This document shows positions 31,912-64,000 of a stretch of 64,000 bases of DNA, one piece after another. Within the stretch, counting starts at the first letter, position 1. The number at the start of each line of letters is the position of its first letter. The notes under the pieces were generated by a model that saw only the letters and a program-made list of their open reading frames with translations, was not told the DNA's origin and ran no database searches. Position numbers and translations under genes: made by a program. The stretch covers positions 44,018 to 108,017 of the forward strand of contig JAQIBP010000054.1 in assembly GCA_027858995.1 (NCBI GenBank), given 5' to 3'. The DNA is from Deltaproteobacteria bacterium (GTDB lineage Bacteria; Desulfobacterota; Desulfobacteria; Desulfobacterales; Desulfobacteraceae).

Positions 31912-32448
31912 GTTTGCCCCCTTAATCTAAGTTATAAATTAATTGTGAAAATTATTATTGGCAACCTGTGATTCCAGTCTTCTTTGAGCAATGCATCACT
32001 AAAACAGTCAATGATCTTATGCCCAGGACATAAACAAGTTGCTCATCAGATGCGCCTTTATCCTAAAGGAGTTCCAGCTATAAAACAATCTTTTTTTTTG
32101 ATAATCTTGGGAGAATTGTCATACATCCCAAAAAAGCCAGGGAGATTAAAACACTCATAAATATCAAGTAAAAGATATGGTTTTCTTATTGTAATTCAAA
32201 TAGAGATGCTCCATCCCCATGATGAGCAGCCGGATAAAAATATTACTCCTGCCACCTTGTACCACAGTGTGATATGTATTATATTATAATAAATAACTGG
32301 CTTTAAGGGTTTATTTGTTTTGTTGAGTTATATTCATGGTTGCTTGATTGACAAAAGGCATCTCTTTGTATGGTATTATAATTTTTTCAACTCTTAATAT
32401 GCCTAAAATAAACCTGACAGCTTGAATCAGAAAAAAGAGGAGAATATA
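31912..32448. promoter_or_regulatory. 537-bp divergent intergenic region between rubrerythrin and cooS
   Basis: No convincing gene. It must hold the promoters of both neighbours. The block 32150-32200 (ending in GATATGGTTTTCTTATTGTAA) and TAATAAATAACTGGC at 32289 recur at 34970-35020 and 35045-35060 between two other divergent genes, which suggests a shared regulatory sequence. Confidence 0.5.
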
Positions 32449-34413
32449 ATGGCCAAAGAAATCATTACCAAAAAACAGGTTCCAGCATCAGATCGAACCA
32501 TGTGCGATGCAACAGCTCAAATGCTTGAAAAAGCCAGAAGGGATGGGGTCATAATTGATCTTGACCGTGGTTATGATATGAAACCATGCCCCATAGGTGT
32601 TCAATCTGCTTGCTGCAAGCATTGCTTTATGGGGCCGTGTCGTTTAAACCCGAGAGATCCATACAAAAAAGTTGGTGTTTGCGGAGCAACAATTGATACT
32701 ATCATGTCAAGAAATTTTGGAAGAATGGTTGCTGCAGGATCTGCCTCCCATAATGATCATGGAATGAATATACTTGAATTGTTTAAGGGTATAATTGACG
32801 GTAAAGTAAAGGATTTTAAGATAAAAAACACTTTCAAACTTGAAGAACTTGCAAAATCGATTGGCATTGATATTGAAGACAAAGAAATTCTTGAAGTTGC
32901 AAAAGAGCTTTACACAGAACTTGAAAAGACATTTTCCAATGTTGAAGGGGAGATGCCTTTCACAAAAAGAGTTCCCAAAGAAACTCTTGAACAATGGCGC
33001 AGGGAGGGTGTTGTTCCAAGAGGTGCCATGCGTGAAATAATGGAGCTCATGAGCAGGACTCATATCGGTTGTGACCAGGATTATAATAATCTTTCAAAGC
33101 AGATTACACGTACTGCCCTTGCCGACGGATGGGGCGGTTCAATGATTGCAACAGAACTTTCAGATATAATGTTTGGAACACCATCTCCCACGCTGGCTGA
33201 CGTTAACATGGGTGTTTTAAAAGAAGATCATGTAAATATTATTGTCCATGGACATGAGCCTGCCATGTTTGAAGCCATGCTTGCCGGTGTTAATGATAAG
33301 TTTTTCATTGATGCAGCAAAGGAAAAGGGTGCCAAAGGGATTAATCTGGTCGGCATGTGCTGTTCCGGTGCTGAAATGATGTCCAGACACGGTGTTCCAC
33401 ATGCAGGAAGTTTTGGGTCAACTGAAGCTGTTATAGTAACAGGTGCAGTTGATGCTATGGTTGTTGATATCCAGTGTATTAAACAGGGGCTTGCCTCGGT
33501 TGCGAAATGTTATGATACATACCTTATTACAACAAATCCAAGGGCACATATTGAAGGTGCAACTCATATTGAATTTGAGGAGACTAATCCAGGCAAATGT
33601 ATTGATGATGTTCTTTCCAAAGCCATTGCAAGATTCGGTACCAGAAGCATGCCTGTGGAAATTCCTCAAATAACCCAATCCGGTATCCACGGATTTTCCC
33701 ATGAATATATAGAGTATATGCTGGGTGGTGTTTACAGAGGCAGTTATACACCCCTTAATGATAATATTATTAATGGAAGAATCCGGGGGGTTGCAGGTGT
33801 TGTTGGGTGTACAAATCCAAAAGTTAAACAGGATTCAATTCATATAGAGCTTGTCAAAGAGTTAATAAAAAATGATGTATTGGTACTTCAGACAGGATGC
33901 TCACAGATTTCACTTGCCAAGGCAGGCTTTCTTGTGCCCGAGGCTGCATGCCTTGCCGGAGATGGACTTGCAGAAGTATGTGAAACTGTTGGTATGCCTC
34001 CTGTCCTGGGCTTGGGCTCCTGCGTTGATAATACCAGAATTCTAATTGCAGCATCAGCAATGGTTAAAGCAGGCGGCCTTGGTAACACGATTGCCGACCT
34101 GCCGGTTGCAGGATGTGCTCCTGAGTGGATGAGTGAGAAAGCAATTGCCATTGGTCAGTATTTTGTGGCTTCAGGTGTATATACGGTTTTTGGTATTGGT
34201 CTTCCAATTGTAAAAGGCACCAAGTATTATGATTATCTTTTCAATGGTATGGAGAAGCAGGGTTTTGGGAAATGGGGTACAGCGTCAGACCCCCATGAAA
34301 TTGCACAGATGATGATAGCTCACATTGATAAAAAGAGAAAACAGCTTGGGATTGACAAGGCAAGAGAGAGGACTCTCGTTGATATGTCAGATAGAAGACA
34401 GCTTACTGCTTGA
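32449..34413 (+). CDS. cooS: Anaerobic Ni-Fe carbon monoxide dehydrogenase, catalytic subunit
   Basis: 654 residues from the ATG at 32449 (GAGGAG seven bases upstream; the longer frame starts with TTG). N-terminal B/D-cluster ligands in CPIGVQSACCKHCFMGPCRLNP, later C-cluster residues in GMCCSGAEMMSRHG, GVVGCTNPKV, LQTGCSQ and GLGSCVDNTR. It interconverts CO and CO2. Neither the electron-transfer partner cooF nor the nickel insertase cooC, nor acetyl-CoA synthase, is adjacent, so this is an orphan monofunctional enzyme whose role may be CO detoxification or electron supply. A strong terminator follows. Confidence 0.95.
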   Translation: MAKEIITKKQVPASDRTMCDATAQMLEKARRDGVIIDLDRGYDMKPCPIGVQSACCKHCFMGPCRLNPRDPYKKVGVCGATIDTIMSRNFGRMVAAGSASHNDHGMNILELFKGIIDGKVKDFKIKNTFKLEELAKSIGIDIEDKEILEVAKELYTELEKTFSNVEGEMPFTKRVPKETLEQWRREGVVPRGAMREIMELMSRTHIGCDQDYNNLSKQITRTALADGWGGSMIATELSDIMFGTPSPTLADVNMGVLKEDHVNIIVHGHEPAMFEAMLAGVNDKFFIDAAKEKGAKGINLVGMCCSGAEMMSRHGVPHAGSFGSTEAVIVTGAVDAMVVDIQCIKQGLASVAKCYDTYLITTNPRAHIEGATHIEFEETNPGKCIDDVLSKAIARFGTRSMPVEIPQITQSGIHGFSHEYIEYMLGGVYRGSYTPLNDNIINGRIRGVAGVVGCTNPKVKQDSIHIELVKELIKNDVLVLQTGCSQISLAKAGFLVPEAACLAGDGLAEVCETVGMPPVLGLGSCVDNTRILIAASAMVKAGGLGNTIADLPVAGCAPEWMSEKAIAIGQYFVASGVYTVFGIGLPIVKGTKYYDYLFNGMEKQGFGKWGTASDPHEIAQMMIAHIDKKRKQLGIDKARERTLVDMSDRRQLTA

Positions 34414-40088: not shown

Positions 40089-40667
40089 ATGACAAAATTA
40101 AAAGGAACACAAACTCAAAAAAATTTGTTAACTGCTTTTGCAGGGGAATCACAGGCACGCAACCGATATACCTACTTTGCTTCACAGGCAAAAAAAGAAG
40201 GCTATGTCCAGATTCAATCTATTTTTGAAGAGACTGCAAACCATGAAAAAGAGCATGCTAAACGACTGTTCAAGTATCTGAAGTCAGGCGAAGAAGTCGA
40301 AATCACAGCAGGTTTTCCAGCCGGCACTATTGGATCAACAGTGAACAATCTCAAGGCTTCTGCTGGTGGCGAAAACTATGAAAATACATCCATGTATCCT
40401 GGGTTTGCAGCCACGGCAAGAGAAGAGGGATTCAATGATATTGCAACAACCTTTGCATCCATTGCTGTAGCCGAACTTTACCATGAGAAGAGATTTCTTG
40501 CCCTTGTGGAGAATATTGAAAAGGATCGTGTATTTAAAAGAGAAATGAATGTGAAATGGCGATGCAGGAACTGTGGATATAACCATGAAGGAAATGAACC
40601 ACCTGGTGTATGTCCGGCTTGTGCCCACCCAAAAGCTCACTTTGAATTAATTCCTGAAAATTATTAG
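40089..40667 (+). CDS. Rubrerythrin (near-duplicate of 31333)
   Basis: 192 residues, same organisation as 31333-31911 and about 92 percent identical by eye: diiron residues in ESQARNRYTYF, ANHEKEHAKRLF and AVAELYHEKRFLAL, rubredoxin centre with CRNCGYN and CPACAHPKAHFEL. The GGGGGAAAA leader before ATG also resembles that of the other copy. Peroxide reductase. It follows the damaged rubredoxin gene by 25 bp, an arrangement (rubredoxin then rubrerythrin) usual for functional donor/acceptor pairs. Confidence 0.95.
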   Translation: MTKLKGTQTQKNLLTAFAGESQARNRYTYFASQAKKEGYVQIQSIFEETANHEKEHAKRLFKYLKSGEEVEITAGFPAGTIGSTVNNLKASAGGENYENTSMYPGFAATAREEGFNDIATTFASIAVAELYHEKRFLALVENIEKDRVFKREMNVKWRCRNCGYNHEGNEPPGVCPACAHPKAHFELIPENY

Positions 40668-49772: not shown

Positions 49773-50921
49773 ATGATGACGATGAAATATAATTTTGACG
49801 AAATAATCAACAGAACCCACACATCTTCAATGAAGTGGGAAAAATACAGAGGCAGAGACATAATTCCCATGTGGGTGGCTGATATGGATTTCAAAGCACC
49901 TCAGCCTCTTCTTGATACTCTCCGGCAAAGTATTGAACATGGAATCATGGGGTATACTCTCATCCCTGACAAACTAAATGAACTCATTATTGAAAATCTC
50001 TATACTCTCTATGATTGGAAAATTGAAAAAGAGTGGCTCATATGGACTCCCGGAGTTGTAAGTGCGTTAAATGTTGCCTGTGCAGTCTGCGGTTCCTCCT
50101 TTGATAAAATTGTTACAACAACTCCTGCATATCCTCCCTTTCTCACTGCTCCCTCAAATCATGGAAAGCTTCTTGCAACTGTTCCCATGATTGAAATCAA
50201 TCAGCGTGCAGCCCTTGATTATCACGCACTTGAAAAAGAATTTAAAAGCAATAATACCAGCCTTTTCATGTTCTGCAACCCGTACAACCCGTGCGGCAGT
50301 GTCTTTACAAAAGATGAAATAAATCAGCTTGTAGAACTTTGTACAAAATATGATGTTATCATCTGCTCAGATGAAATACACAGCGATTTTGTACTGGATC
50401 AGAATAAGTACCATATTCCGACAGCATCTATATCAAAAACAGCTGCAAACCAGACCATTACTTTAATGGCTCCTTCCAAAACATATAATATCCCTGGGCT
50501 TGGATGTTCTTTTGCCATTATTCAGGATGAAAATTTAAGGAAAAAATTCAAATCCAGATCAAAGGGTTTGATCCCTGAAGTAAACCTTCTCGGACTTTTT
50601 GCAACCAAGACTGCCTACAAAGAGTGTCATGAATGGCTTGCACAGTTAATTGTCTATCTTAGAAAAAATCGCGATATTGTTCAAGAGCATATAAATAAAA
50701 TGCCGGGGTGCAGACTCAACCCCATTGAATCCACCTATCTTGCCTGGATTGATGTAAAAGATACCAATATAGACGATCCCATAGCTTTTTTTGAACAGGC
50801 AGGAGTAGGTCTTTCAGATGGTAAATTTTTCGGTCAAAAAGGATTTGTCCGGCTCAATTTCGGCTGTCCCAGATCTGTTCTTGAAAAAGGTTTAAGAAGA
50901 ATGGCTGCTGCGCTTTTATAA
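49773..50921 (+). CDS. MalY/PatB-family PLP-dependent C-S lyase/aminotransferase
   Basis: 382 residues. MWVADMDFKAPQPLLDTL is the typical start of the MalY/PatB group; FCNPYNPCGSVF and ICSDEIHSDFV contact the cofactor, and the PLP lysine is in MAPSKTYNIPGLG. Cystathionine beta-lyase-like or aminotransferase activity. Three ATG codons lie within ten bases (49773, 49776, 49782); GGAG at 49769 best fits 49776 or 49782. Confidence 0.9.
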   Translation: MMTMKYNFDEIINRTHTSSMKWEKYRGRDIIPMWVADMDFKAPQPLLDTLRQSIEHGIMGYTLIPDKLNELIIENLYTLYDWKIEKEWLIWTPGVVSALNVACAVCGSSFDKIVTTTPAYPPFLTAPSNHGKLLATVPMIEINQRAALDYHALEKEFKSNNTSLFMFCNPYNPCGSVFTKDEINQLVELCTKYDVIICSDEIHSDFVLDQNKYHIPTASISKTAANQTITLMAPSKTYNIPGLGCSFAIIQDENLRKKFKSRSKGLIPEVNLLGLFATKTAYKECHEWLAQLIVYLRKNRDIVQEHINKMPGCRLNPIESTYLAWIDVKDTNIDDPIAFFEQAGVGLSDGKFFGQKGFVRLNFGCPRSVLEKGLRRMAAALL

Positions 50922-51253: not shown

Positions 51254-52030
51254 GTGATTAAGGTTAGCAACATTTCCAAACACTTTGGCGGGATCAAAGC
51301 TGTTGATAAGGTAGATCTGCATATTCAAAAGGGTTTAATTACAGGCCTTGTTGGTCCCAATGGAGCAGGTAAAAGCACTCTATTCAATCTTATTGCAGGA
51401 CTCTACCCTCCGACATATGGTGAAATTTATCTTGAAGGAGAAGAGATAACTGAATTAAATTCCCACGAGCTTTTTCATAAAGGGCTTTTAAGGACATTCC
51501 AAATTGCCCATGAATTTCCAACTCTCACTGTATTTGAAAATTTAATGATGGTTCCTGGCAGTCAGCTTGGAGAAAATATCATAAATTCCTGGTTAAAACG
51601 CGGGCAGATTCGCAAACAGGAGAGAAAACTGCAGGAAAAAGCTGAAGAAGTATTGGAGTTTTTAAACATTATACACCTTAAAAATGAGCTGGCAGGAAGG
51701 CTTTCCGGAGGGCAGAAAAAGCTATTGGAACTTGCACGGACCATGATGGTTGATGCAAAAGTAGTATTGCTGGATGAAGTTGGTGCAGGAGTAAATCGTA
51801 CCCTTTTACGCCACATTGGGGATGCTATTATAAAACTCAACAAGGAGCAGGGTTATACATTCTGCATGATTGAGCATGACATGGATTTTATTTCAAGATT
51901 GTGCAACCCTGTGGTTGTGCTTACCAACGGCAGTGTTTTGACAACTGGCACTCCAGAAGAAATTATCAATGATGAAGAGGTTATTGATGCTTATCTTGGA
52001 AAAGGCATCAAAGAAGAGGAAACAGCATAA
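51254..52030 (+). CDS. livG: Branched-chain amino acid-type ABC transporter ATP-binding protein LivG
   Basis: 258 residues, GTG start with AAAGGA seven bases upstream. Walker A LVGPNGAGKSTLFNLIAG, signature LSGGQKKLLELAR, Walker B VVLLDEVGAGVN where most LivG have DEPAAG, and the switch His in CMIEHDMDFI. ATPase of the LIV-type uptake system. First gene of livGFHMK; its stop touches the start of livF. Confidence 0.9.
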   Translation: MIKVSNISKHFGGIKAVDKVDLHIQKGLITGLVGPNGAGKSTLFNLIAGLYPPTYGEIYLEGEEITELNSHELFHKGLLRTFQIAHEFPTLTVFENLMMVPGSQLGENIINSWLKRGQIRKQERKLQEKAEEVLEFLNIIHLKNELAGRLSGGQKKLLELARTMMVDAKVVLLDEVGAGVNRTLLRHIGDAIIKLNKEQGYTFCMIEHDMDFISRLCNPVVVLTNGSVLTTGTPEEIINDEEVIDAYLGKGIKEEETA

Positions 52031-52738
52031 ATGGCTTATTTATCAGGAGAAAATATAACAGCTGCATATGATTACAGCGTACCCATACTCAATGACTGTT
52101 CTGTAGAAGTCAATAAAGGCGAGCTTGCTGTTATTGTAGGACCTAATGGAGCAGGCAAGTCAACTGTTATGAAAGTATTGCTGGGCATGCTTAAACAGAG
52201 CAAAGGTTCAGTGATGCTAGAGGGCAAAGATATCTCCAAGTTATCTGTACAAAAAAGAATCACTCTCGGTCTTGCATTTGTACCACAAACTGACAATGTA
52301 TTTCCCACAATGACAGTAGAGGAAAATCTTGAAATGGGAGCTTTTCTAAGAACAGACGATATATCAAAAACCATGGAAGAGGTATATGAACTCTTTCCAA
52401 TCCTTTATGAGAGAAGTAATCAGCTGGTAGGGCAGTTATCAGGGGGACAGCGCCAGCAGGCAGCATTTGGCAGGGCAATGATGACAAAACCCACAGTGAT
52501 GCTGTTAGATGAACCAACCGCAGGAGTTTCACCGATTGTAATGGATGAAATTTTTGGAAATATTTTACGTCTGAAAAAATCAGGCAGGGCAGTGCTGATG
52601 GTAGAACAAAATGCCAAGCAGGCGTTGACAATTGCAGACAAAGGTTATGTCCTGGTTTCAGGAAGCAATGAACATACTGGCACAGGGAAAGAACTTATTG
52701 CAGACCCTGTGGTACGAAAATCTTTTCTTGGAGGATAA
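52031..52738 (+). CDS. livF: LIV-type ABC transporter ATP-binding protein LivF
   Basis: 235 residues. Walker A VIVGPNGAGKSTVMKVLLG, signature LSGGQRQQAAFGRAMM, Walker B VMLLDEPTAGVS. It pairs with LivG. Begins immediately after the livG stop; its own end overlaps the leader of livH, GGAGGATAAATG. Confidence 0.9.
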   Translation: MAYLSGENITAAYDYSVPILNDCSVEVNKGELAVIVGPNGAGKSTVMKVLLGMLKQSKGSVMLEGKDISKLSVQKRITLGLAFVPQTDNVFPTMTVEENLEMGAFLRTDDISKTMEEVYELFPILYERSNQLVGQLSGGQRQQAAFGRAMMTKPTVMLLDEPTAGVSPIVMDEIFGNILRLKKSGRAVLMVEQNAKQALTIADKGYVLVSGSNEHTGTGKELIADPVVRKSFLGG

Positions 52739-53761
52739 ATGCCTTGGTTTACAGACATTCTTAACGCTGTTGTTTTAATGTGCAATTTCATGATTGTTCC
52801 TGCTTTATCATATGGTTCCCAGCTGGCTCTTGGTGCACTTGCAGTAACCCTGGTTTATTCTGTTTTAAGATTTGCCAATTTTGCCCAGGGTGATACCATG
52901 GCATTTGCCACTGTTGTTACTATTCTATCTACATGGGTACTGCAAAATTCCGGCATAAGTTTCGGATTTATGCCCACAGCTATTCTTGCCATGCCCATAG
53001 CAGTTATTGCATGCCTGGCTTATGTTCTGTTGATTGATAAATTTGTATATGAATACTATAGAAACCAGAACAGCAAACCCATCACCATAGTCATGGCATC
53101 TGTCGGTGTTATGTTTATTACAGGCGGTATTGTAAGATTTGTACTGGGGCCCAGCCATCAAATCTTTTCAGATGGAGCACGGTTTATCATAACAACAAGA
53201 GAATTCAAGGAGATGACCGGACTTTCAGAGGGGCTTGCAATTAAAACCTCGCAATTTTTAACAGTGACCATTGCAATTATGCTTGTGGGCTTTGTGTTTT
53301 ATTTTTTACAGAAAACAAAAACCGGAAAAGCCATGCGTGCCTATTCTGACAATGAAAACCTGGCATTGTTGTCCGGGATTGACCCTGCAAAAGTAGTACG
53401 TGTTACATGGATACTGGTAGCGGTTTTAACAACAATAGCAGGAGTTTTATATGGCCTTGATAAAGGTTTTATGGCCATTTCATACCACCAACTGTTATTA
53501 CCGACTTTTGCAGCAGTTATCGTTGGAGGCATAGGTTCTCCAATAGGTGCCATTGTCGGAGGTTTTGTAATCTCTTTTTCTGAACTGACAATGACCTATG
53601 CATATAAAAAATTTTTAATTTATCTGCTGCCGGAAGCTTTGGAACCAAGTGGTCTGGTACAATTTCTTTCCACTGAATACAAATTTGCCATCTCTTTTGT
53701 AATCCTTGTTATTGTACTACTATTAAGACCCACAGGAATTTTTAAAGGTAAAGTGATATGA
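52739..53761 (+). CDS. livH: LIV-type ABC transporter permease LivH
   Basis: 340 residues, multiple membrane helices; ALAVTLVYSVLRFANFAQGD is the family's N-terminal helix region, and FAAVIVGGIGSPIGAIVGGF its conserved C-terminal helix. GGAGG lies just before ATG, inside the livF end. The stop overlaps the livM start (ATGA). Confidence 0.9.
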   Translation: MPWFTDILNAVVLMCNFMIVPALSYGSQLALGALAVTLVYSVLRFANFAQGDTMAFATVVTILSTWVLQNSGISFGFMPTAILAMPIAVIACLAYVLLIDKFVYEYYRNQNSKPITIVMASVGVMFITGGIVRFVLGPSHQIFSDGARFIITTREFKEMTGLSEGLAIKTSQFLTVTIAIMLVGFVFYFLQKTKTGKAMRAYSDNENLALLSGIDPAKVVRVTWILVAVLTTIAGVLYGLDKGFMAISYHQLLLPTFAAVIVGGIGSPIGAIVGGFVISFSELTMTYAYKKFLIYLLPEALEPSGLVQFLSTEYKFAISFVILVIVLLLRPTGIFKGKVI

Positions 53762-55116
53762 ACCAGTATAAAGCAAGACTATTTATAAGTTTTTCCATGA
53801 TGATTTTATTGCTTCTGCTGGTTGGTTTTTTTCAATCATGGGCATTGTGTCTGACCATAGTGAATTTATGTCTGATTTCAGCAATAATGGCACTGGGGGT
53901 CAATATTCAATGGGGGTATGCAGGTCTTTTTAATGTTGGAATAATGGGATTTGCCGCTCTTGGAGGAATGAGTGTAGTCCTGATTTCAAAAAACAGTGTA
54001 CCGGAAGCTTTGCAGGCCGGCGGATTGAAGATGTTTATCGCCCTGTTTATTCTCGCAGCCACTGTGGCAGCTGCTGTCTATCTCCATAAAAAATTTCAGC
54101 GAAAATCCCTTGTTATTTTAACCATTTTAATCGGCTATTTTATAACAAGATATTTCTATTCTGATGCCTCTCAATCCATTGAATCTGTCAATCCAGCCCT
54201 GACCGGATATCTTGGAGGGCTTGGTCTGCCAGTACTTTTTTCATGGATTGCAGGCGGTTTTCTTGCAGCAGCAGCTGCCTGGCTCATTGGAAAAATTACC
54301 CTTGGACTGCGTACAGATTATCTTGCCATTGCAACCCTTGGAATTTCGGAAATCATACTGGCTGTAATCAAAAATGAAGACTGGATGGTCAGAGGAGTAA
54401 AGAATGTAACATCCATTCCAAGACCTGTGCCCTATGAAATTGATTTGCAGCAGACTGCCTGGTTTCAGGATATGATTGCAAAATTTTATTCAAAAAGCTT
54501 AGACATACTGCCTGTAGCAGACCAGGCAGCAGCTTTAAAGGATTATATAAGCGAAGCTTCAATTTTAATGGTGAAACTTAGTTATACAGGGTTGTTTACA
54601 TCAGTTTTACTGCTTCTTATAATTCTTGCCACCTTAGCGCTTAACTCACCATGGGGGCGGATGATAAGAGCAATCCGAGATAATGAGACAGCAGCTTCTG
54701 CCATGGGTAAGGATATCACCAAAAGACATCTGCAGATATTTGTTATCGGCTCTGCCATTGTTGGAGTAGCCGGAGCCATGCTGGTTACCTATGACGGACA
54801 GTTCACCCCTGGTTCATACATACCCTTGCGATTTACATTCCTTATCTGGGTCATGGTGATTGTTGGGGGATCCGGCAATAATCTCGGATCTGTTATTGGC
54901 GGATTTGTAATCTGGTTTCTCTGGATTATGGCAGAACCTGTCGGCTTCTGGCTGGCAGATTTGTCAACATCCTTTTTAAATAGTGAAAACTTTTTCAGGC
55001 AGCATTTATTGGAGCATGCACAGTATATAAGACTTATATTCATGGGGCTTGTCTTATTGCTGGTTATGCGGTTCAGTCCAGACGGCATACTGCCTGAGAC
55101 AAACAAAAAATTGTAA
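53758..55116 (+). CDS. livM: LIV-type ABC transporter permease LivM
   Basis: 452 residues, slightly longer than typical LivM because of a helix-rich insert (about residues 90-150). NIQWGYAGLFNVGIMGFAALGG, RTDYLAIATLGISEIILAV and GSGNNLGSVIGGFVIWF mark the conserved helices. It forms the second half of the channel with LivH. A four-base overlap with livH implies coupling. Confidence 0.9.
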   Translation: MNQYKARLFISFSMMILLLLLVGFFQSWALCLTIVNLCLISAIMALGVNIQWGYAGLFNVGIMGFAALGGMSVVLISKNSVPEALQAGGLKMFIALFILAATVAAAVYLHKKFQRKSLVILTILIGYFITRYFYSDASQSIESVNPALTGYLGGLGLPVLFSWIAGGFLAAAAAWLIGKITLGLRTDYLAIATLGISEIILAVIKNEDWMVRGVKNVTSIPRPVPYEIDLQQTAWFQDMIAKFYSKSLDILPVADQAAALKDYISEASILMVKLSYTGLFTSVLLLLIILATLALNSPWGRMIRAIRDNETAASAMGKDITKRHLQIFVIGSAIVGVAGAMLVTYDGQFTPGSYIPLRFTFLIWVMVIVGGSGNNLGSVIGGFVIWFLWIMAEPVGFWLADLSTSFLNSENFFRQHLLEHAQYIRLIFMGLVLLLVMRFSPDGILPETNKKL

Positions 55117-55133
55117 TTTAACAGGAGGATTGT

Positions 55134-56330
55134 ATGAAAAAATGTTTAAAAATTATTGTAGTTTTACTTTTTGCAATGAGCTTCAGTGTTGCAGGTTTTG
55201 CAGCCGGAACTGTAAAAATAGGTATTTTACAGGGCTTTACTGGTCCCATTGAATCATTAACCCCACCAATGGCATTAGCAGCTGAGCTTGCAATTAATGA
55301 GGCATCTGATTCCGGAGCATTCCTTGGTGGAACAAAAATTGTATCGGTTCGTGGTGACTCTACCTGTATTGATGCATCTGCTGCAACTGCTGCAGCTGAA
55401 AGACTTATCAATTCAGAAAAAGTTATTGCAATTGTGGGAGCAAGCTGTTCAGGCTCTACTACTGCTGTGGTAAACAATGCATCTGTACCAAACGGCATAA
55501 CAACCATCTCATCATCTGCCACTTCTTCTGCTCTAACCATGATAAAGGATAATGGCTTTTTTTTCAGAACTGCTCCTTCAGATGCAAGACAGGGTCAAGT
55601 TCTGGCCAATATAGTGATTGACAGAGGTATTAAACAAGTTGCTATAACCTATACCAATAATGACTATGGTAAAGGTCTCTCCAACGCATTTACAGGAGTG
55701 TATACAAAACTGGGCGGCAAGATTTTAATGACAGCTTCCCATGAAGACGGCAAAGCTGATTATGCTGCTGATGTAGCTTCTTTGTCAGCTTCAGGAGCCA
55801 ATGATCTTGTTGTTTTTGGTTATCTTGATCAGGGTGGCAAAGGTATTATTCAGGCATCCCTTGATACTGGAGCATTTGACCGTTTCATCTTGGCTGATGG
55901 TATGATTGGCCCTGGTTTAACTGACGATCTTGGTAAAGGTATAAACGGCTCATTTGGTACAATGCCTGGTGGAGAGAGTGAAGCAGCCCAAAAATGGGCA
56001 AAAGTTGGCAAAGCATCCGGAATTCCACTTGACGGTCCCTTCAGGGATGGATCCTATGATGCGGCAGCTTTGATTATTCTTGCTGCCCAGGCAGGCAATT
56101 CAGCTGATAGAGCAAGCATCCAGAAACATATAATGGATGTTGCCAATGCACCGGGTGAGAAGATTTTTGCCGGTGAATTGAAAAAAGGCCTTCAAATCCT
56201 CGCCAAAGGCGGAAAAATTGACTATGTTGGTGCAAAGGATATTGAATTTAATGAAGTTGGTGAAATTTTCGGTTCCTACCAGGAGGTGGAAGTTAAAAGC
56301 GCTAAATTTGAAACCATCAAGGTTCATTAA
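55134..56330 (+). CDS. livK: LIV-type periplasmic substrate-binding protein
   Basis: 398 residues with signal peptide (VVLLFAMSFSVAGFAAG). Class I periplasmic-binding fold: KIGILQGFTGPIESLTPPMALAAELA, IAIVGASCSGSTTAV, and AITYTNNDYGKGLSNAF. It lacks an obvious lipobox. The ligand cannot be read; phenylacetate-type aromatics or amino acids are possible because of the neighbouring oxidation cluster (inference). AGGAGGATT ribosome binding site; followed by a stem-loop terminator. Confidence 0.85.
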   Translation: MKKCLKIIVVLLFAMSFSVAGFAAGTVKIGILQGFTGPIESLTPPMALAAELAINEASDSGAFLGGTKIVSVRGDSTCIDASAATAAAERLINSEKVIAIVGASCSGSTTAVVNNASVPNGITTISSSATSSALTMIKDNGFFFRTAPSDARQGQVLANIVIDRGIKQVAITYTNNDYGKGLSNAFTGVYTKLGGKILMTASHEDGKADYAADVASLSASGANDLVVFGYLDQGGKGIIQASLDTGAFDRFILADGMIGPGLTDDLGKGINGSFGTMPGGESEAAQKWAKVGKASGIPLDGPFRDGSYDAAALIILAAQAGNSADRASIQKHIMDVANAPGEKIFAGELKKGLQILAKGGKIDYVGAKDIEFNEVGEIFGSYQEVEVKSAKFETIKVH

Positions 56331-56438: not shown

Positions 56439-56879
56439 TTATAACTTTTTTTTCAGATTGATAAATTCACTTCTTTCAAATCCAAGTTTTTTAAAAAAAG
56501 ATAGCACATCTGTGGAATCCCAGCGAACAGATGAGTATATATGCTCAACCCCTCTATTTTTATATATTTCACAAATTTTTCTGGCAAGTGCAAGGCCTAT
56601 GCCTTGCCCCATATAATCAGGATGTACTCCAATAGCCATTATCCAGGCACTTTTTTTAATGCCAAAGCCTGCATAAAGAGTTGTACTTATCATATAGCCC
56701 GCAACATTTCCATTAACTTCAGCAACCAGGCTTGCTTTTCCATGATCATCCCGAACCTGCTGCCCAATAAGCTTTTCCGAATCAATGTCGGCATCATCGG
56801 CTGTTATGGCTTCTCTTATATTCTGGATCGCCTCTGCATCATTCAGAGTGATTTCTCTAATATCCACTGTACCTTTCAC
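56439..56879 (-). CDS. GNAT-family N-acetyltransferase
   Basis: 146 residues from GTG 56879 (GGGAGG seven bases upstream). IREITLNDAEAIQNIRE, IMAIGVHPDYMGQGIGLALARKI (acetyl-CoA binding loop QGIGLA) and YSSVRWDSTDVLSFFKKLGF follow the GNAT fold. Substrate unknown; RimI-like protein acetylation or amine detoxification is possible. It may be co-transcribed with the small DUF2080-type gene just upstream of it. Confidence 0.85.
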   Translation of the reverse strand: MKGTVDIREITLNDAEAIQNIREAITADDADIDSEKLIGQQVRDDHGKASLVAEVNGNVAGYMISTTLYAGFGIKKSAWIMAIGVHPDYMGQGIGLALARKICEIYKNRGVEHIYSSVRWDSTDVLSFFKKLGFERSEFINLKKKL

Positions 56880-57209: not shown

Positions 57210-57251
57210 AAAAGGCACAGAAAAGAGATAATATTCTTTTCTGCACCTTTT
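57210..57251 (-). terminator. Terminator of the right-edge oxidoreductase operon
   Basis: Arms AAAAGGCACAGAAAAG (57210-57225) and CTTTTCTGCACCTTTT (57236-57251), two mismatches, 10-nt loop; on the - strand the stem is followed by a run of T. Confidence 0.75.
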
Positions 57252-57306: not shown

Positions 57307-58209
57307 CTAAATCAATGGTTTATATACAGCACTCTTCATAATAACAAATCTCATGGCAAGATCCCCTGCACAAACAGATGCCAGTCTTAAAAAGATCAAA
57401 AAGCCATTGGTGTCTCCACCCCACATGATCAGGGTTAAAATCAGGGGAAGGACAACACCGAGTCCGACCACGCCAATTAAAGAGATCTTTAAAAGCTCTT
57501 CATTTGTTAAATTTTTAATGGATTCCTTTCCAATATCACTTGCATGCCAGGTTCCCCATACATAGAGAAGCAGACATAAAAAGTAGGCAAAGAAAAAGAC
57601 TTCAGCCCAGATTTCCATTCCCGAAGCAAACCCTGCAGTACCGGACACTGCAGCCATTAACTGCAGTACCTGCTGACCCACCCAGATGCCGGATATAACA
57701 GACAAAGGCAGAACCATTGTTGAACTCCAGGCTGGAAGTGCTTTGATGACATTCATGGTGGCAAAACCATGGGAAATAATTAAAAGGCATAAAATTGCCA
57801 TAATAGTATTAAATACCATATTAAAGCCACCTGCAGTTACAATCTGTAAAAAGCCCAAAGCTGCGAACGCCCCAATTATCCACATACCGCGAGCCAATTC
57901 CGAGGTGTTGGGTTTCATGAACATTCGCCAGGCTCTTGTTGGCTGACCAAGGTACAATACATGGATAAGTCCGCCAAGAAACAAAGTTATCAGCCAGCCA
58001 AGGATAAGACCAGCCTTATATTCATAAAAAAGTGAAACAAAATAGAGTCCGGCTCCAATTTCAGAAAAAAAGAACGCCAGCCACAGAAATATACCTTTTT
58101 TATCAATCCACTCCCGCTGACGGGTTGGATTCATCATCCACTCATAGGGTTTGAGTCCGCTTCCATCAGGAGGAAACATTGTCTGTACAAGTTCGTGTAT
58201 TTTACCCAT
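57307..58209 (-). CDS. NrfD/DmsC-like membrane anchor subunit (PadD-like)
   Basis: 300 residues from ATG 58209 (GAGGAGGAG upstream). Eight or more hydrophobic helices, with GIFLWLAFFFSEIGAGLYFVS near the start and repeated Gly-rich turns (LGWLITLFLGGLIHVLYLGQP). This matches the NrfD/DMSO reductase anchor family that passes electrons between a molybdoenzyme Fe-S subunit and the quinone pool. Last gene of the leftward operon; its partner subunits lie immediately upstream. Confidence 0.8.
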   Translation of the reverse strand: MGKIHELVQTMFPPDGSGLKPYEWMMNPTRQREWIDKKGIFLWLAFFFSEIGAGLYFVSLFYEYKAGLILGWLITLFLGGLIHVLYLGQPTRAWRMFMKPNTSELARGMWIIGAFAALGFLQIVTAGGFNMVFNTIMAILCLLIISHGFATMNVIKALPAWSSTMVLPLSVISGIWVGQQVLQLMAAVSGTAGFASGMEIWAEVFFFAYFLCLLLYVWGTWHASDIGKESIKNLTNEELLKISLIGVVGLGVVLPLILTLIMWGGDTNGFLIFLRLASVCAGDLAMRFVIMKSAVYKPLI

Positions 58210-58222
58210 TTTATCTCCTCCT

Positions 58223-60829
58223 CTAATCTTTATAAATTTTAACTGCAACAGCAGTTTCAATATTACCGGTTATTGGATCATAATGCCTCAGATATGAAGG
58301 CAGCAGTTTACAAAAATTGGACCCTTTGCCTTTGGCAATTGGCCTGCCATCTGCCCAGAGACCACCCTGACCAGATATACCTACAACTCTCGGGCTTTGA
58401 GCTTCCATGGTTTTAACAATACCATTTTCTTTGACGCCATACCTGTTTTCAAGCCAGATAACATCCCCATCCTTCATTCCTCTTTCTCGTGCTATATCAG
58501 TATTCAAAGTGATAGTGAACGTATAGGGACACATCTTTGAAACTTCATCAATATAAGGATTTTGAAAAGTAGTATTATTAGTATGAAGGATATCTCTATA
58601 GGAAAAAGCCAGAAGATCATATTCATTGTCAAGCTCTCTATAGGAAATTGGCACAAACCAGGATGGTATTGGCGTATATTGATCCAGTTCCATCTCAAGG
58701 TCAAACCCGGTATCTTCTATAATTTTATCAATAGCTCTTCTATCATGGATCAAAAACTCCATATAAATAGGACAACGACTTTCAGTATTCCATCTCCAGT
58801 AGACATCTTCAATGGGTTTATGCCATGTTGCATAGCCACGCTCTTCTATCATCTCTTTATCATCGCCATAGACCCATCTCATATACCGCTCCCCAATCTC
58901 TTTCCAGGTCAAAAATTCCCCTGGTTTGATCTTGAGTTCTTCATCGGTGACACCATAGTAATTGTTCAGGCTTTCATTAAATTTATCAAGAACACCAACT
59001 CTGTGGGCAACATCCATATAAACATCCATGAAAAATCTTGATTCTCCAATTGGTTCGGCAACCGGATTTTGCAGATGCACATACCAATCTTCATTGGAAG
59101 GAGATCCTGAAAAGAAGAATGCATCAATTTCAGAAGACCAGCAGTCTTTTTCAAGATATGAAACATCGGGCAGAATAATATCGCCAATTGCCTGGTCAGT
59201 CTCATTGACCCAGAGATCATTTTGAACAACAAAACAGTCTTTAAAATTTTCAATGGCAACATCCCAGTCTGACTGGCTGATGATAAAGTTGGCGGCAATA
59301 CCAAATATCATTTCAGGTTTAGCACCCATGCCGAATTTCTCGTGGATATAATCTTTCTCTTTAACATAGGGAATATGGGAAAGAGTACAGTGTGTCCAGA
59401 AATTCACACATCCACTATTATCACATGGAACAGAAGGTGTATGTACAGGCCATGGATCATGTGAAAAAAATACAGCTGGAATCAGAACGCCATCTTTACC
59501 AATTCTTGGCATACGTTCATACTGCCCGCCAGGATATTTTCTTCTCTTGGAAGGCCATCCCATTGTTCCTCCTGGAACATCTTCCGCACCCACAAGCTGA
59601 CTTATGAGATCGATTGAAGCCACCTGGTGAATACCGTTGGTATGTCCTTGAGAACCTCTAAAGGTAACTGAAGATACTGGTCTGTACGGAAATGTCTGTC
59701 CTTCAATTGTTATTGTTGAACCAATCTGAGCATTATCCACCCAGTCTTTGGCAATCTGGAGAATAGTTCCAACAGGAACTGTTGATATCTCTGATGCCCA
59801 TTCAGGAGTAAATTGTTTTAAATGCTCTTTTACAGCCATGAAACATGGTCTGCATTTTTCTCCATTATGCTCATAATCACCCTCAAGGCTGAAATCTTCA
59901 TAGGCTATGGATTTATCGTCGAATTCCTTGATTTTTTGTGCTTTGTTATCAAAAACAAGGGGTTTATCACTGTTCTCATCACGAATAAAGGTGCCATCTT
60001 CTCTGATAAGATATACATAATTTGTCTTGGCTTTCAAATAAAACTCATCAATTTCGCCCCGGGTATTCAAGATATAATTTGCAATTGCAAGCCCTACTGT
60101 TGTATCAGTTCCAGGAAGAATTGGCACCCACTCTGTAGCTTTCCCGCCTGCAAAGTTACCCATTGGATCAAATACAACTTCTCTGGTGCCACGTCTGATG
60201 GCATCAGCTCTAAGCCTTGCATTTGTCATGGCAGAGTGTCCGGAACCTGTACCTTTACTTGAACCCCATTTAAGAACATATTTGGTATAGCGCCAGTCAG
60301 GAGCTATGGACCATGCACCATGGATCAAACCACCCAGCATATGGGCTGCATTTCCACAATGAAGACTGCCGCCGCCGATAATAAAGTTACCATTATTTTT
60401 AACACCAAAAGCCTGGGCATAAAAATAAGGGTGATTATGAGGGCCGTCACTGGCTCTCATGGTCTGGTTTGTAAAAAGAATCTTGTTGGGATCATCTTCC
60501 ATGATTTTTTTCTTTTTAGTGGATATGATCTCAAGGGCTTCTTCCCACTCAATCTCTTTCCATTTAGGATCAACTCCAATACCTTTTTCAGGGTTGGTCC
60601 TCAATAGCGGCTTTTTAATCCTGTTGGGATCATAATAATACATAAGTCCTGCCACGCCTTTGCCACAAAGACTGGACCCGGTTCCTCCCATGGTACTGTC
60701 TTTAATACCTTCAATTTTGACAGGCATGCCATTTACCACTCTGACTCTTGCAGAACAACCGCAATAACATACGCCACAGGTGGTATTTACCCATTTATCT
60801 TCCCATATTTCATCTGTTTTATAGGTCAT
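58223..60829 (-). CDS. DMSO-reductase-family molybdopterin oxidoreductase, PadB-like catalytic subunit
   Basis: 868 residues. An N-terminal [4Fe-4S] motif CGVCYCGCSARVRVV with a later Cys in SSLCGKG; molybdopterin-binding segments RASDGPHNHPYFYAQAFG, GGGSLHCGNAAHMLGG (a Cys-type metal ligand is plausible) and GSSKGTGSGHSAMTNARLR; the C-terminal dinucleotide-binding domain ends it. No twin-arginine signal, so it faces the cytoplasm, as expected for a CoA-ester substrate. With its Fe-S and NrfD partners next to a 2-oxoacid oxidoreductase, the best match is phenylacetyl-CoA:acceptor oxidoreductase (product phenylglyoxylate); polysulfide or other reductases remain possible. Confidence 0.75.
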   Translation of the reverse strand: MTYKTDEIWEDKWVNTTCGVCYCGCSARVRVVNGMPVKIEGIKDSTMGGTGSSLCGKGVAGLMYYYDPNRIKKPLLRTNPEKGIGVDPKWKEIEWEEALEIISTKKKKIMEDDPNKILFTNQTMRASDGPHNHPYFYAQAFGVKNNGNFIIGGGSLHCGNAAHMLGGLIHGAWSIAPDWRYTKYVLKWGSSKGTGSGHSAMTNARLRADAIRRGTREVVFDPMGNFAGGKATEWVPILPGTDTTVGLAIANYILNTRGEIDEFYLKAKTNYVYLIREDGTFIRDENSDKPLVFDNKAQKIKEFDDKSIAYEDFSLEGDYEHNGEKCRPCFMAVKEHLKQFTPEWASEISTVPVGTILQIAKDWVDNAQIGSTITIEGQTFPYRPVSSVTFRGSQGHTNGIHQVASIDLISQLVGAEDVPGGTMGWPSKRRKYPGGQYERMPRIGKDGVLIPAVFFSHDPWPVHTPSVPCDNSGCVNFWTHCTLSHIPYVKEKDYIHEKFGMGAKPEMIFGIAANFIISQSDWDVAIENFKDCFVVQNDLWVNETDQAIGDIILPDVSYLEKDCWSSEIDAFFFSGSPSNEDWYVHLQNPVAEPIGESRFFMDVYMDVAHRVGVLDKFNESLNNYYGVTDEELKIKPGEFLTWKEIGERYMRWVYGDDKEMIEERGYATWHKPIEDVYWRWNTESRCPIYMEFLIHDRRAIDKIIEDTGFDLEMELDQYTPIPSWFVPISYRELDNEYDLLAFSYRDILHTNNTTFQNPYIDEVSKMCPYTFTITLNTDIARERGMKDGDVIWLENRYGVKENGIVKTMEAQSPRVVGISGQGGLWADGRPIAKGKGSNFCKLLPSYLRHYDPITGNIETAVAVKIYKD

Positions 60830-60843
60830 ATTTTCCCCTGTTA

Positions 60844-61500
60844 TTAATCTATATAATACACTGCTGGTTCAGTGCCAAATTCTTTTCTAAGTTGTTTGCC
60901 CTTTTTCTCCATGATCAGACGATTTACTTCACTGTCAGGATCATTAAGGTCACCAAACACCCTTGCGTTGACCGGGCAGATAGTGACACAGGCAGGAGTT
61001 GCCTCTTCATCCTTACCAGGTTCAAGGCCTTTTTTCATGCCGTCTTCCAGTCTTTCTGAACAGAAATTGCATTTAATAACTGTCCCGACTTTAAAGGGAT
61101 AAAGTTTTTCTCCAAGCAATTCCAGCTGTGTTTTACCCTGACCTGGAAAATATTCCCTGTCCTTGACTTCCTGGTCATAATAAGTTCTCTGCTGGTAGGG
61201 ACAACTTACAAGACATGCCCTGCATCCAACACATTTGTCATCATCAACCTCAACAATACCGTCTTCTCTGATATAAGTTGCTCCTGTTGGACATGCTTCC
61301 ACGCATGCCGCTTCAGAGCAATGATTACAAAGAATCGGATAGATCAATTTGCTTGATGACGGAAATTTCCCGGTTTCTCCAATCAGCACCCTGTTAAAAA
61401 ATACTCCAGGAGGAAGAAAGTGTTCCTCTTTACATGCTATTGTGCAGCCCCAACAAGCGATACACCTTTTTACGTCGATTACCATTCCCCATCTCGGCAT
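60844..61500 (-). CDS. Four-cluster ferredoxin-type electron-transfer subunit (PadC/NrfC-like)
   Basis: 218 residues with four [4Fe-4S] motifs: CIACWGCTIACKEEH, CNHCSEAACVEACPTGA, CVGCRACLVSCPYQQR and CNFCSERLEDG with ACVTICPVNARVF. This is the DmsB/NrfC type of subunit shuttling electrons between the molybdoenzyme and the membrane anchor. No twin-arginine signal. AAAGGAG ribosome binding site; 14 bp ahead of the molybdoenzyme gene. Confidence 0.88.
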   Translation of the reverse strand: MPRWGMVIDVKRCIACWGCTIACKEEHFLPPGVFFNRVLIGETGKFPSSSKLIYPILCNHCSEAACVEACPTGATYIREDGIVEVDDDKCVGCRACLVSCPYQQRTYYDQEVKDREYFPGQGKTQLELLGEKLYPFKVGTVIKCNFCSERLEDGMKKGLEPGKDEEATPACVTICPVNARVFGDLNDPDSEVNRLIMEKKGKQLRKEFGTEPAVYYID

Positions 61501-61545
61501 AACAGCTCCTTTATTTTTTGTAGTTTTAAAATGTGAAATTTTTTA

Positions 61546-62094
61546 TCACATCTCGTATATTTTAACCTCTTCAAATCCTCTTTTTGTACACACAATATTT
61601 GCTGCAAGCTTTTTACCGGAAAAATAATCCTGCAAAGCCTCACAGCACGGTTCAATATCCAGCAGACCCGACATTTTTGCAAATGCTCCTGCAATTACAG
61701 TATTGGGTATTGGAAGACCGATCTCTTCAAGGGCAATTTTATTGGCATCAATAATACCCACTTTTTTCAAATTTTCATGGGAGACACTCAAAGTATCAGC
61801 ACTGTCATTGAGCAGCATCATGCCGCCCGGTTTCAACCCTTTAAAAACAAGCTCTGAGTCTCTCTGGCTTGGGTCAAGCACCACAAGAATATCTGGATTA
61901 TAGATTTGTGTTTTTTCCCTGACCGGCTTATCTGAAAATCTTCCAAATGCTGTAACAGGTGCTCCCCTTCTCTCAAACCCGAACATTGGAAAACTTGCGC
62001 CAAACTGTCCTGTTCTGGCAAAAGCATTGGCAAGAATTTTTGATGTCGTAACAACACCCTGGCCTCCTCTGCCATGGAATCTGACTTCACTCAT
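61546..62094 (-). CDS. 2-oxoacid:acceptor oxidoreductase, gamma subunit
   Basis: 182 residues from ATG 62094 (AAAGGAGG upstream; an in-frame start at 62142 lies in the beta gene). SEVRFHGRGGQGVVTTSKILANAF is the hallmark start of the gamma domain, followed by ERRGAPVTAFGRF. It completes the alpha-beta-gamma enzyme that oxidatively decarboxylates a 2-oxoacid to acyl-CoA. 17 bp after the beta gene. Confidence 0.9.
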   Translation of the reverse strand: MSEVRFHGRGGQGVVTTSKILANAFARTGQFGASFPMFGFERRGAPVTAFGRFSDKPVREKTQIYNPDILVVLDPSQRDSELVFKGLKPGGMMLLNDSADTLSVSHENLKKVGIIDANKIALEEIGLPIPNTVIAGAFAKMSGLLDIEPCCEALQDYFSGKKLAANIVCTKRGFEEVKIYEM

Positions 62095-62111
62095 TTTTAA
62101 GTTTCCTCCTT

Positions 62112-63068
62112 TTAATCTTCTGCAGATACAGGAAGCTGACACTCTGCTTCCAATACACTCAAACCGCCCAGTATACAGTATTCATAATCTATATCTTCCT
62201 GGAGAATCTCAAGATCTTCTTCATTAAGATGTGCAAATTTTTTAATTAATTCAGTATAAGTTGATACAGGTTTGGGTTTTTTAACGGTTTGGGTCATCCT
62301 GACTTTACCATTTTCTGCTTCCCAGAGCGGGAAATAATTGGACTTTACTGCTCTTCTACATACTTCAACGGTATTTTCAGGGGCATATCCCCACCCGGTT
62401 GGACAGGGGGCAAAAACATGCAGGAATGCAAAACCTCTCTCTTTGGCTTCCTTTGCTTTAAGCAGTTTTTTCGCAAGATCTTCCAGATTGCTCAAAGTTG
62501 CAGTGGCAGTATATGGAATCTTATGCATTGCCATTTTTAAAGCAAGATTCATTCTTCTTAAATTTTTACCTTTGGCAATTAATCCTGCAGGTGTGGTGGT
62601 TGTACTTGCTCCAAATGGAGTTGTACCACTTTTCTGGATACCGGTATTCATATATCCTTCATTATCATAACAGATGTAGATAAAGGGTTCATTTCTTTCA
62701 GCTGCTCCTGAAAGATTGCCAAACCCAATATCCGCAGCTGTTCCATCACCGTTAAAACATACCACTGTATTATCAATGCCGGCTTTTTTATAATATCTTG
62801 CAAGACCTGTTGCATTTGCAGCAGCTCCGGTCATCAAAGTTCCAAAATAGGAGAGCGTATGCCATGACTGTTTATTCTGCCCAAGGAGTACAGGAGCAGA
62901 GCATGAAGGAGTACCTGTAATTACAATATCATTGCCCAGAATTTTTGGTATCAATCTTATCAAAAGTTCAAGACTGCAGCCGGGGCAGAATGCAACACCT
63001 TTTGAAAAAGGATCATCATGTTTGAAATAATCCAGGACTTTTGTAAGTTTGCCTTTTTTTTGTGTCAT
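62112..63068 (-). CDS. 2-oxoacid:acceptor oxidoreductase, beta subunit (thiamine diphosphate domain)
   Basis: 318 residues. CPGCSLELLIRLI (Fe-S ligands), GDGTAADIGFGNLSGAAE (thiamine-diphosphate Mg2+ motif GDG-x-N-like) and YICYDNEGYMNTG. Its partner molybdoenzyme suggests phenylglyoxylate, giving benzoyl-CoA, as in the Pad enzyme of aromatic degraders. Pyruvate or 2-oxoisovalerate oxidoreductase is the alternative. GGAGGGC ribosome binding site; two bases after the alpha gene. Confidence 0.88.
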   Translation of the reverse strand: MTQKKGKLTKVLDYFKHDDPFSKGVAFCPGCSLELLIRLIPKILGNDIVITGTPSCSAPVLLGQNKQSWHTLSYFGTLMTGAAANATGLARYYKKAGIDNTVVCFNGDGTAADIGFGNLSGAAERNEPFIYICYDNEGYMNTGIQKSGTTPFGASTTTTPAGLIAKGKNLRRMNLALKMAMHKIPYTATATLSNLEDLAKKLLKAKEAKERGFAFLHVFAPCPTGWGYAPENTVEVCRRAVKSNYFPLWEAENGKVRMTQTVKKPKPVSTYTELIKKFAHLNEEDLEILQEDIDYEYCILGGLSVLEAECQLPVSAED

Positions 63069-63070
63069 AA

Positions 63071-64000
63071 TTAAAGCCCTCCTTCTTTTGAATCACTTGC
63101 TCTCTGGGCTTCGGGATATGAAACCCATGTGACTTCTCGGACATCTTTGCCCGTAGCAAGATCACAGATTGTGTCGATCATCTGACCGACATTGGCTGTT
63201 GTTATATCTGTATTTGCAATACCATCAATAAAACTTACCATCCTGGCGCCCTCAAGCTGTGTCTCAAAGGCTTTTAACTCAGTATAAATGGGACCGCCCT
63301 TAAATCCAAAATTAAGGCTTCTGTCCACAACACCGATTGCTTTTTTACCCTTAAGAGCCTTAACCATTACCTCTGAAGGAAATGGTCTGTACATTCGTAT
63401 CTTTAAAAGACCAACCTTGATACCTTGATTTCTCTTCTCATCAATAACAGTTTTAATTGTGCCGCACATGGATCCGGAGCCCACAAGTATAACATCTGCA
63501 TCATCCATGCGGTACTCTTCAATCTGACCGCCGTAACTGCGGCCGAAAATATCCTCAAACTCTCTGTCAATCTGTTCAAATTTGGCCTTAGACCTCTCCA
63601 TGGCTGAAACATGCTTATATCTAAGTTCAAGATAGCCACCAAGAATTCCATGGGAGCCGCAGCCAAGTTTTCCACCAGGTGTAAGTTTAACTCTCTCAGG
63701 CTGATCTTTTAACACAGAGAGAAATTTATCTACATCTTCCTGAAAAGGGACATCCACACCCTCGGAGAGATAGGAGAGATAGAATCCGTCATAATGTACC
63801 ATTACAGGCACCTGGATATCATAATCTTCAGCAAGGCGATAGGCCTGAATAACAAGATCAATAACTTCCTGACAGTCTTCTGCAATGAGAAAAATCCAGC
63901 CTGCATCCCTTGTGGAAATCATATCCTGCTGTCCTGAAGAGACAGCAATAATTCCGGGAGTTTCACGGTTTACATTAACCATGACCACAGGAGCTCTTGC
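63071..64000 (-). CDS. 2-oxoacid:acceptor oxidoreductase, alpha subunit (partial, continues past right edge)
   Basis: The frame is open to the end of the window, so the N-terminus is missing. The visible 309 codons include ARAPVVMVNVNRE, SGQQDMISTRDAGWIFLIAEDCQEVIDLVIQAYRLAED and the CoA-domain GSGSMCGTIKTVIDEKR. The C-terminal part KALKGKKAIGVVDRSLNFGFKGGPIYTELKA is typical of the alpha chain. A delta (ferredoxin) subunit is likely outside the window on the right. Confidence 0.88.
   Translation of the reverse strand, partial: ARAPVVMVNVNRETPGIIAVSSGQQDMISTRDAGWIFLIAEDCQEVIDLVIQAYRLAEDYDIQVPVMVHYDGFYLSYLSEGVDVPFQEDVDKFLSVLKDQPERVKLTPGGKLGCGSHGILGGYLELRYKHVSAMERSKAKFEQIDREFEDIFGRSYGGQIEEYRMDDADVILVGSGSMCGTIKTVIDEKRNQGIKVGLLKIRMYRPFPSEVMVKALKGKKAIGVVDRSLNFGFKGGPIYTELKAFETQLEGARMVSFIDGIANTDITTANVGQMIDTICDLATGKDVREVTWVSYPEAQRASDSKEGGL

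Follow-up and report, generated by a model that had tools for sequence, protein, structure and literature searches.

Introduction

The described systems closest to the locus analysed here are the Pad enzymes, i.e. the phenylacetyl-CoA:acceptor oxidoreductase PadBCD and the NADH-dependent phenylglyoxylate dehydrogenase PadEFGHI. More distantly related are the reductases of the Psr, Phs and Arr types, which are exported enzymes. Arylacetyl-CoA can also be supplied from phenylalanine and tyrosine via arylpyruvates by indolepyruvate oxidoreductases (IOR). A report that describes the Pad route found the genes of PadB and PadEFGHI to be absent in D. multivorans, where no enzyme candidate was identified for the conversion of phenylglyoxylate, and stated that PadB and PadEFGHI had been shown not to be required for phenylacetate in Desulfobacula toluolica Tol2 (PMC5109826). 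The route by which sulfate reducers convert phenylacetyl-CoA to benzoyl-CoA is thus unsettled (PMC5109826). The two concrete gene sets of Tol2 described below make this question testable. Putative phenylacetyl-CoA and phenylglyoxylate oxidoreductases have also been reported in Dehalococcoidia, by annotation only, and may differ from the genes considered here (PMC4959651).

We analysed a window of 64,000 nucleotides (bases 44018-108017 of contig C71, which ends at window base 64000) from a 3.98-Mb draft genome of a sulfate-reducing deltaproteobacterium. It contains an operon that we find to be real, conserved and Pad-like, on a branch separate from that of the known Pad enzymes. Most likely, its products convert arylacetyl-CoA to aroyl-CoA and pass the electrons to ferredoxin and menaquinone.

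Results and discussion

Organization of the operon and its surroundings

Six genes lie on the minus strand at the right end of the window (Table 1). They are transcribed in the order alpha, beta and gamma subunits of a 2-oxoacid oxidoreductase, Fe-S subunit, molybdopterin (Mo) subunit and NrfD-like subunit, with gaps of 2, 14-17, 45, 14 and 10-13 bp. This is the leftward unit, with gaps of 2-45 bp, that an earlier note made from the sequence alone had described. The Pfam cut-offs of POR, TPP_enzyme_C, POR_N/PFOR_II, Fer4 and Molybdopterin are all passed. The NrfD-like subunit matched no Pfam model at E ≤ 0.001, and its assignment comes from its predicted structure (pLDDT 83), which aligns to 2vpw_C, the PsrC chain of polysulfide reductase (E 1.4e-4, TM 0.74). 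The same note had proposed a shared terminator. A hairpin with a T run is indeed present 3' of the operon, and is weak evidence alone, since the region has seven hairpins of this type and chance would give 5.9.

The first 119 bases of contig C42, from the same genome, are identical to the last 119 of C71. Joining both contigs gives a complete alpha subunit of 413 aa, preceded by a ferredoxin-like delta subunit of 93 aa. The delta gene lies outside the window, on the side where it had been anticipated, and the unit therefore comprises seven genes. The Tol2 orthologue of delta scores above the PorD/KorD cut-off. A search for plasmids returned only 30% matches.

Table 1. Operon genes and neighbouring features, in window coordinates.
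Feature	Position	Strand	Basis
PatB-family PLP enzyme (C-S lyase/aminotransferase), beside the LIV-type transporter	49773-50921	+	TIGR04350 over cut-off; synteny
LIV-type ABC transporter (livG, livF, livH, livM, livJ)	51254-56330	+	Translations, by reading; synteny
GNAT acetyltransferase	56439-56879	-	Relative in L036 matches GNAT models; conserved position
Terminator-like hairpin and T run, 3' of operon	57210-57251	-	Consensus match only
PadD-like membrane anchor, PsrC/NrfD fold, about 300 aa	57307-58209	-	Structure model and 2vpw_C match; 28% to PadD
PadB-like molybdopterin catalytic subunit, 868 aa	58223-60829	-	Molybdopterin (Pfam); alignment; 30% / 358 bits to PadB
PadC-like electron-transfer Fe-S subunit, 16 Cys	60844-61500	-	Fer4; 44% to PadC; Cys positions
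2-oxoacid oxidoreductase gamma subunit	61546-62094	-	POR; TIGR02175 over cut-off
2-oxoacid oxidoreductase beta subunit, TPP-binding, 318 aa, without ferredoxin fusion	62112-63068	-	TPP_enzyme_C
2-oxoacid oxidoreductase alpha subunit (PadG/PorA family)	63071-64000, 5' end cut by window	-	POR_N and PFOR_II; alpha tree

The Mo subunit carries an N-terminal 4Fe-4S site formed by C18, C21, C25 and C55, all of them invariant alignment columns. The equally invariant C158 is the probable Mo ligand, as it fits the position of this ligand in ArrA-type enzymes. The cysteines of the Fe-S subunit leave room for four 4Fe-4S clusters. By reading, no Tat or Sec signal was seen at the start of the Mo protein (N-terminus MTYKTDEIWEDKWVNTTC, the same in orthologues) or of the Fe-S protein, in line with the lack of an export signal claimed earlier for the molybdoenzyme. 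The PadB proteins of L044 and L042 likewise have no export signal by reading.

The phenylacetate-CoA ligase and benzoyl-CoA reductase genes that had been expected to the right of the window were not found: the translations of C42 contain neither within 20 kb right of the operon. By reading, what lies right of delta is a fragment of a sigma-54 regulator, type IV pilin genes, and SbcCD-like and UvrA-like genes. Aromatic genes adjoin the operon neither in its own genome nor, consistently, in close relatives. Upstream of delta (L175) there is an inverted repeat (ATCACTACTGATAGTTGA-CTAA-TCAACTATCAGTAGTGAT), along with a TTGACA-like site; they are possibly an operator or the end of another unit. A fragment upstream of the operon (L175:1092-1433) resembles a sigma-54-dependent regulator and is perhaps a decayed regulator gene.

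On the other side, the GNAT gene is on the same strand as the operon and is frequently beside it in relatives; it is probably a passenger. The LIV-type transporter is convergent with the operon and syntenic in several relatives, where the operon is adjoined by the transporter, the PatB-family enzyme and an aminopeptidase-like gene. Genes of the LIV type also adjoin the distant homologues L067, L087 and L105. Elsewhere in the window, we read three rubrerythrin-like genes within a span of less than 17 kb (24319-24894, 31333-31911 and 40089-40667), two of them nearly identical, and a gene resembling the catalytic subunit of carbon-monoxide dehydrogenase (CooS type, 32422-34413).

Conservation among relatives

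We searched 25 other genomes of the genus and found the Mo protein, whole or partial, in 20 (69-91% identity); three other genera of the family have it too (79-84%). The named relatives with the operon are Desulfobacula, Desulfotignum and other Desulfobacteraceae. Most genomes of the genus have all seven genes, D. toluolica Tol2 among them, and the order delta-alpha-beta-gamma-FeS-Mo-NrfD is nearly always observed wherever the contig permits. Gene order is thus kept across the genus at Mo-subunit identities of 79-91%, which shows that the arrangement did not arise by chance. The exception is a Desulfotignum MAG (L078), whose Mo gene (81% identical) has no oxidoreductase or Fe-S genes around it, owing to either a rearrangement or an assembly fault. 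In the literature library searched, we found no paper on this operon in Desulfobacula or Desulfotignum, and the Tol2 genome paper may already discuss these genes.

Relationship to the canonical Pad enzymes

D. toluolica Tol2 encodes both the window-type operon, at about 279-286 kb, and a canonical pad cluster (L044, about 4.916-4.925 Mb) with the gene order padE-F-G-H-I-B-C-D. In this cluster padE, padG and padH pass the NCBIfam cut-offs and padI is 4 bits short. The cluster adjoins an allantoinase/dihydropyrimidinase-like gene. Our reference for PadB is the protein of the pad clusters recognised by the NCBIfam models for PadE, PadG, PadH and PadI (D. toluolica and two other genomes), not the protein of Thauera.

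The Mo subunit scores 358 bits against PadB of D. toluolica (30% identity), compared with 106 bits for ArrA and 83 bits for polysulfide/thiosulfate reductase, its best solved relatives. Its profile scores for PhsA (167 of 694 bits) and ArrA (114 of 1600 bits) are both below the cut-offs. The earlier note had named two observations that would speak against its Pad-like reading: a closer relation to thiosulfate, polysulfide or aldehyde enzymes, which the Mo subunit does not show, and a lack of aromatic genes nearby, which does hold. Even so, the Mo subunit is not an orthologue of PadB. A tree of 89 Mo proteins places PadB, together with two relatives, in one fully supported clade and the window's protein in another, and many uncharacterised groups lie between the PadB clade and that of the window, hereafter clade W. 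A tree of 40 proteins gave the same split, and a joint clade of PadB and the window's protein was rejected (AU test, p = 1.3e-5, leaving out the unrelated Mo protein L094_1667).

We then compared the neighbourhoods of PadB-like Mo genes. Linked alpha and beta genes are present at all three loci of the PadB clade, at 20 of the 29 clade-W loci with at least 4 kb of flank, and at none of 49 others. The clade-W cases are mostly close relatives; L071, L087, L089, L093 and L111 are independent distant ones, and L138 is on a shorter contig. Since linkage is confined to two separate Mo clades, the association with a 2-oxoacid oxidoreductase has had two or more origins or has undergone many losses. Both clades fit one logic, where the Mo enzyme would yield a 2-oxoacid and the oxidoreductase would cleave it. 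The PadB-like superfamily is broad, and to annotate a protein as PadB from homology alone is unsafe. Another PadB-like trio (FeS-NrfD-Mo) in G008 (L041:9062-18713) is followed by genes for a UbiD decarboxylase, an ADP-forming acyl-CoA ligase pair and an aldehyde-ferredoxin-oxidoreductase-like protein; this is a different uncharacterised cluster, possibly aromatic. In G048 (L043:9495-14131), a PadB-like Mo gene adjoins an aconitase-family gene.

The other subunits are also homologous to those of the canonical pad cluster of D. toluolica (alpha/PadG 40%, beta/PadI 44%, gamma/PadE 44%, Fe-S/PadC 44%, NrfD/PadD 28%). Gamma (172 of 300 on the PadE model) and beta (278 of 700 on PadI) score below the NCBIfam equivalog cut-offs. 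The Tol2 orthologue of alpha scores 417.6 bits on archaeal PorA (cut-off 550) and 363.9 bits on PadG (cut-off 700), passing neither, and the ordinary POR of the phylum, with 440-528 bits on the PorA model, are likewise below 550. Calling alpha as PorA or PadG from these scores alone proved misleading, because the tree groups the proteins in the opposite way: most clade-W alphas, the window's included, are the sister of PadG (99% support), apart from 30 PorA of the phylum, in an unrooted tree that leaves out VOR and the oxalate enzymes. The alphas of L087 and L089 fall among PorA, and the pairing thus has another origin in those genomes. The PadH flavoprotein is absent from the operon in all the family relatives read, and beta does not carry the ferredoxin fusion of PadI. 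Hence, the Pad-like label given earlier to the locus was apt as regards its nearest characterised relatives, PadB/C/D and PadG/I/E, and failed if taken as orthology: judged on sequence, the operon is no orthologue of padBCD-EFGHI, given its separate Mo clade, the scores below the PadE, PadG and PadI cut-offs, the lack of PadH and of the PadI fusion, and the additional presence of canonical pad in Tol2.

Association with the benzoyl-CoA pathway

The window's own genome encodes 6-oxocyclohexene-carbonyl-CoA hydrolase (Oah) and Had over cut-off, elsewhere than at the operon, and Oah is over cut-off in most operon-bearing relatives. Among the family genomes at least 90% complete, Oah or Had is present in 18 of 18 with the operon and in one of six without it (exact p about 1.4e-4, worked by hand from the counts and uncorrected for shared descent). 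This count scored Oah, Had (dehydrogenase) and clear fragments, G013 being counted on one Oah fragment; before the correction for Had, p was 8e-4. G019 (79% complete), operon-bearing by its alpha gene, is outside the count. We dropped G020 as a counter-example with the operon and no Oah, because its Had, encoded close to the end of a contig, passes the cut-off. Among distant genomes with the linked operon, Oah is over cut-off in G359 (L071) and in those of L087 and L111, and was not found in those of L093, L089 and L138. None was found in the Dehalococcoidia MAGs G448, G449 and G452, which have the linked operon and may be incomplete.

We consider it probable that the operon encodes two coupled enzymes that shorten arylacetyl-CoA by one carbon, to aroyl-CoA. 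A membrane-bound, cytoplasm-facing Mo complex, made of Mo, four 4Fe-4S clusters and a PsrC-like anchor, would take phenylacetyl-CoA (or a ring-hydroxylated form), oxidise its CH2 beside the thioester so as to give the arylglyoxylate, a 2-oxoacid, and pass the electrons to menaquinone. The alpha-beta-gamma-delta oxidoreductase would convert arylglyoxylate and CoA to aroyl-CoA and CO2. As the operon has no PadH and beta no fused ferredoxin, we infer that its electrons would go to ferredoxin via delta, and not to NAD via PadH. The aroyl-CoA would enter the benzoyl-CoA pathway, encoded elsewhere in the same genome. The substrate is probably phenylacetyl-CoA or a close relative, e.g. hydroxyphenylacetyl-CoA, derived from aromatic amino acids. 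The phenylacetate or phenylalanine pathway suggested earlier was right in kind, phenylacetate itself being a candidate substrate.

Alternative substrates and reactions

A narrower form of this explanation, whose probability overlaps with it, keeps the chemistry and makes the substrate specifically 4-hydroxyphenylacetyl-CoA, from tyrosine, giving 4-hydroxybenzoyl-CoA and leaving phenylacetyl-CoA to canonical pad. We regard this as possible, if doubtful. It would suit the presence of both gene sets in D. toluolica, and above all the locus L071 of G359, where TRAP genes and a CoA ligase lie before a homologous operon (Mo 45-47%, alpha 48%) and a 4-hydroxybenzoyl-CoA reductase lies after it (alpha subunit of the reductase with 1012 bits for a cut-off of 994.6). 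Of the direct links to arylacetate chemistry, this locus is the strongest; in that genome it points to 4-hydroxyphenylacetate. The own genome also has a cluster resembling this reductase on contig C49, at 867-874 bits and thus below the cut-off of 994.6. However, a reductase of this type (860-880 bits) is present in only 5 of the 18 operon-bearing genomes at least 90% complete, nearly all of which have Oah, and its co-occurrence with the operon in the family is not significant (p = 0.07 for all genomes, 0.28 for those at least 90% complete). Since it does not track the operon in the window's family, phenylacetyl-CoA is the likelier substrate at home. Moreover, canonical PadG passes its cut-off in just 2 of 58 genomes. 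It is thus lacking from most operon-bearing genomes of the family, in which the operon is the sole Pad-like candidate for phenylacetyl-CoA.

A phenylacetate-CoA-ligase-like gene is present on contig C48 of G000 (L162:3578-20000), together with a caprolactamase-like subunit and two complete enzymes of the xanthine-dehydrogenase type; such a ligase and Mo hydroxylases are found together in many relatives. We rejected it as evidence for phenylacetate because of these neighbours.

The operon might instead be non-aromatic, combining an oxidoreductase that serves amino-acid catabolism and uses pyruvate or branched-chain 2-oxoacids with a Mo complex that oxidises an aliphatic acyl-CoA. The higher raw score of alpha for PorA than for PadG, the LIV-type (branched-chain amino acid class) transporter next to the operon and near the distant homologues L067, L087 and L105, the many uncharacterised members of the wider Mo superfamily and the Dehalococcoidia MAGs without Oah are all consistent with this. 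We nevertheless find it unlikely, given that the operon tightly co-occurs with the benzoyl-CoA pathway in the family, that the alpha tree excludes PorA and that the neighbours at L071 are aromatic.

Another option reverses the order of the steps: the oxidoreductase would act first, from arylpyruvate to arylacetyl-CoA, and the Mo complex second, with phenylglyoxylate left to another enzyme. The LIV transporter and the PatB-type PLP enzyme, both syntenic with the operon, suggest that amino acids are taken up and deaminated, and for D. multivorans no enzyme candidate for phenylglyoxylate conversion is reported (PMC5109826). Yet for this step the own genome already encodes two indolepyruvate oxidoreductases, of which one passes its cut-off and which could supply arylacetyl-CoA from arylpyruvates, and alpha is sister to PadG, a phenylglyoxylate user, which makes this order rather improbable. 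Finally, a polysulfide-, thiosulfate- or arsenate-type respiratory reductase placed by chance after an ordinary pyruvate oxidoreductase is very improbable and already largely refuted: the Fe-S subunit and the anchor resemble PsrB/PsrC and ArrB in fold or sequence, but the Mo subunit is much nearer PadB than ArrA or PsrA, the linkage to the oxidoreductase is conserved in distant phyla, and, with no Tat signal, the active site would face the cytoplasm.

A broader proposal seems plausible, and we put it forward tentatively. Clade W may be a second, separately evolved class of molybdoenzymes for the alpha-oxidation of arylacetyl-CoA, associated with a ferredoxin-reducing arylglyoxylate oxidoreductase. 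In many Desulfobacteraceae and Dehalococcoidia this route might be the principal or sole one of its kind, and more energy might be conserved than by the NADH-linked Pad of denitrifiers.

Comparison with known systems

The operon shares with PadBCD of Thauera aromatica and Aromatoleum a cytoplasmic Mo protein, i.e. a bis-pterin subunit with an N-terminal 4Fe-4S site and no export signal, together with a PadC-like Fe-S subunit, a membrane anchor and a linked 2-oxoacid oxidoreductase gene. It differs in the Mo subunit, which is only 30% identical and belongs to another clade, the comparison being made through the pad clusters of D. toluolica and two other genomes. PsrABC/PhsABC and ArrAB have related folds in the three subunits, whereas the window's Mo protein has no signal and is closer to PadB. 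With PadEFGHI, the alpha, beta, gamma and delta subunits are homologous and alpha is in the sister group of PadG; in contrast, the operon has neither PadH nor a ferredoxin-fused beta, and does not reach the PadE, PadG and PadI cut-offs. The four-subunit pyruvate:ferredoxin oxidoreductase PorABCD (9bt4) has the same subunit plan and is the best solved relative of alpha, but the window's alpha is outside the PorA group in the tree and its Tol2 orthologue has 417 bits for a cut-off of 550. Among the Dehalococcoidia, for which such oxidoreductases have been annotated (PMC4959651), L093 (RBG_13_51_18) and others have the same type of operon, with an alpha subunit 61% identical to that of the window.
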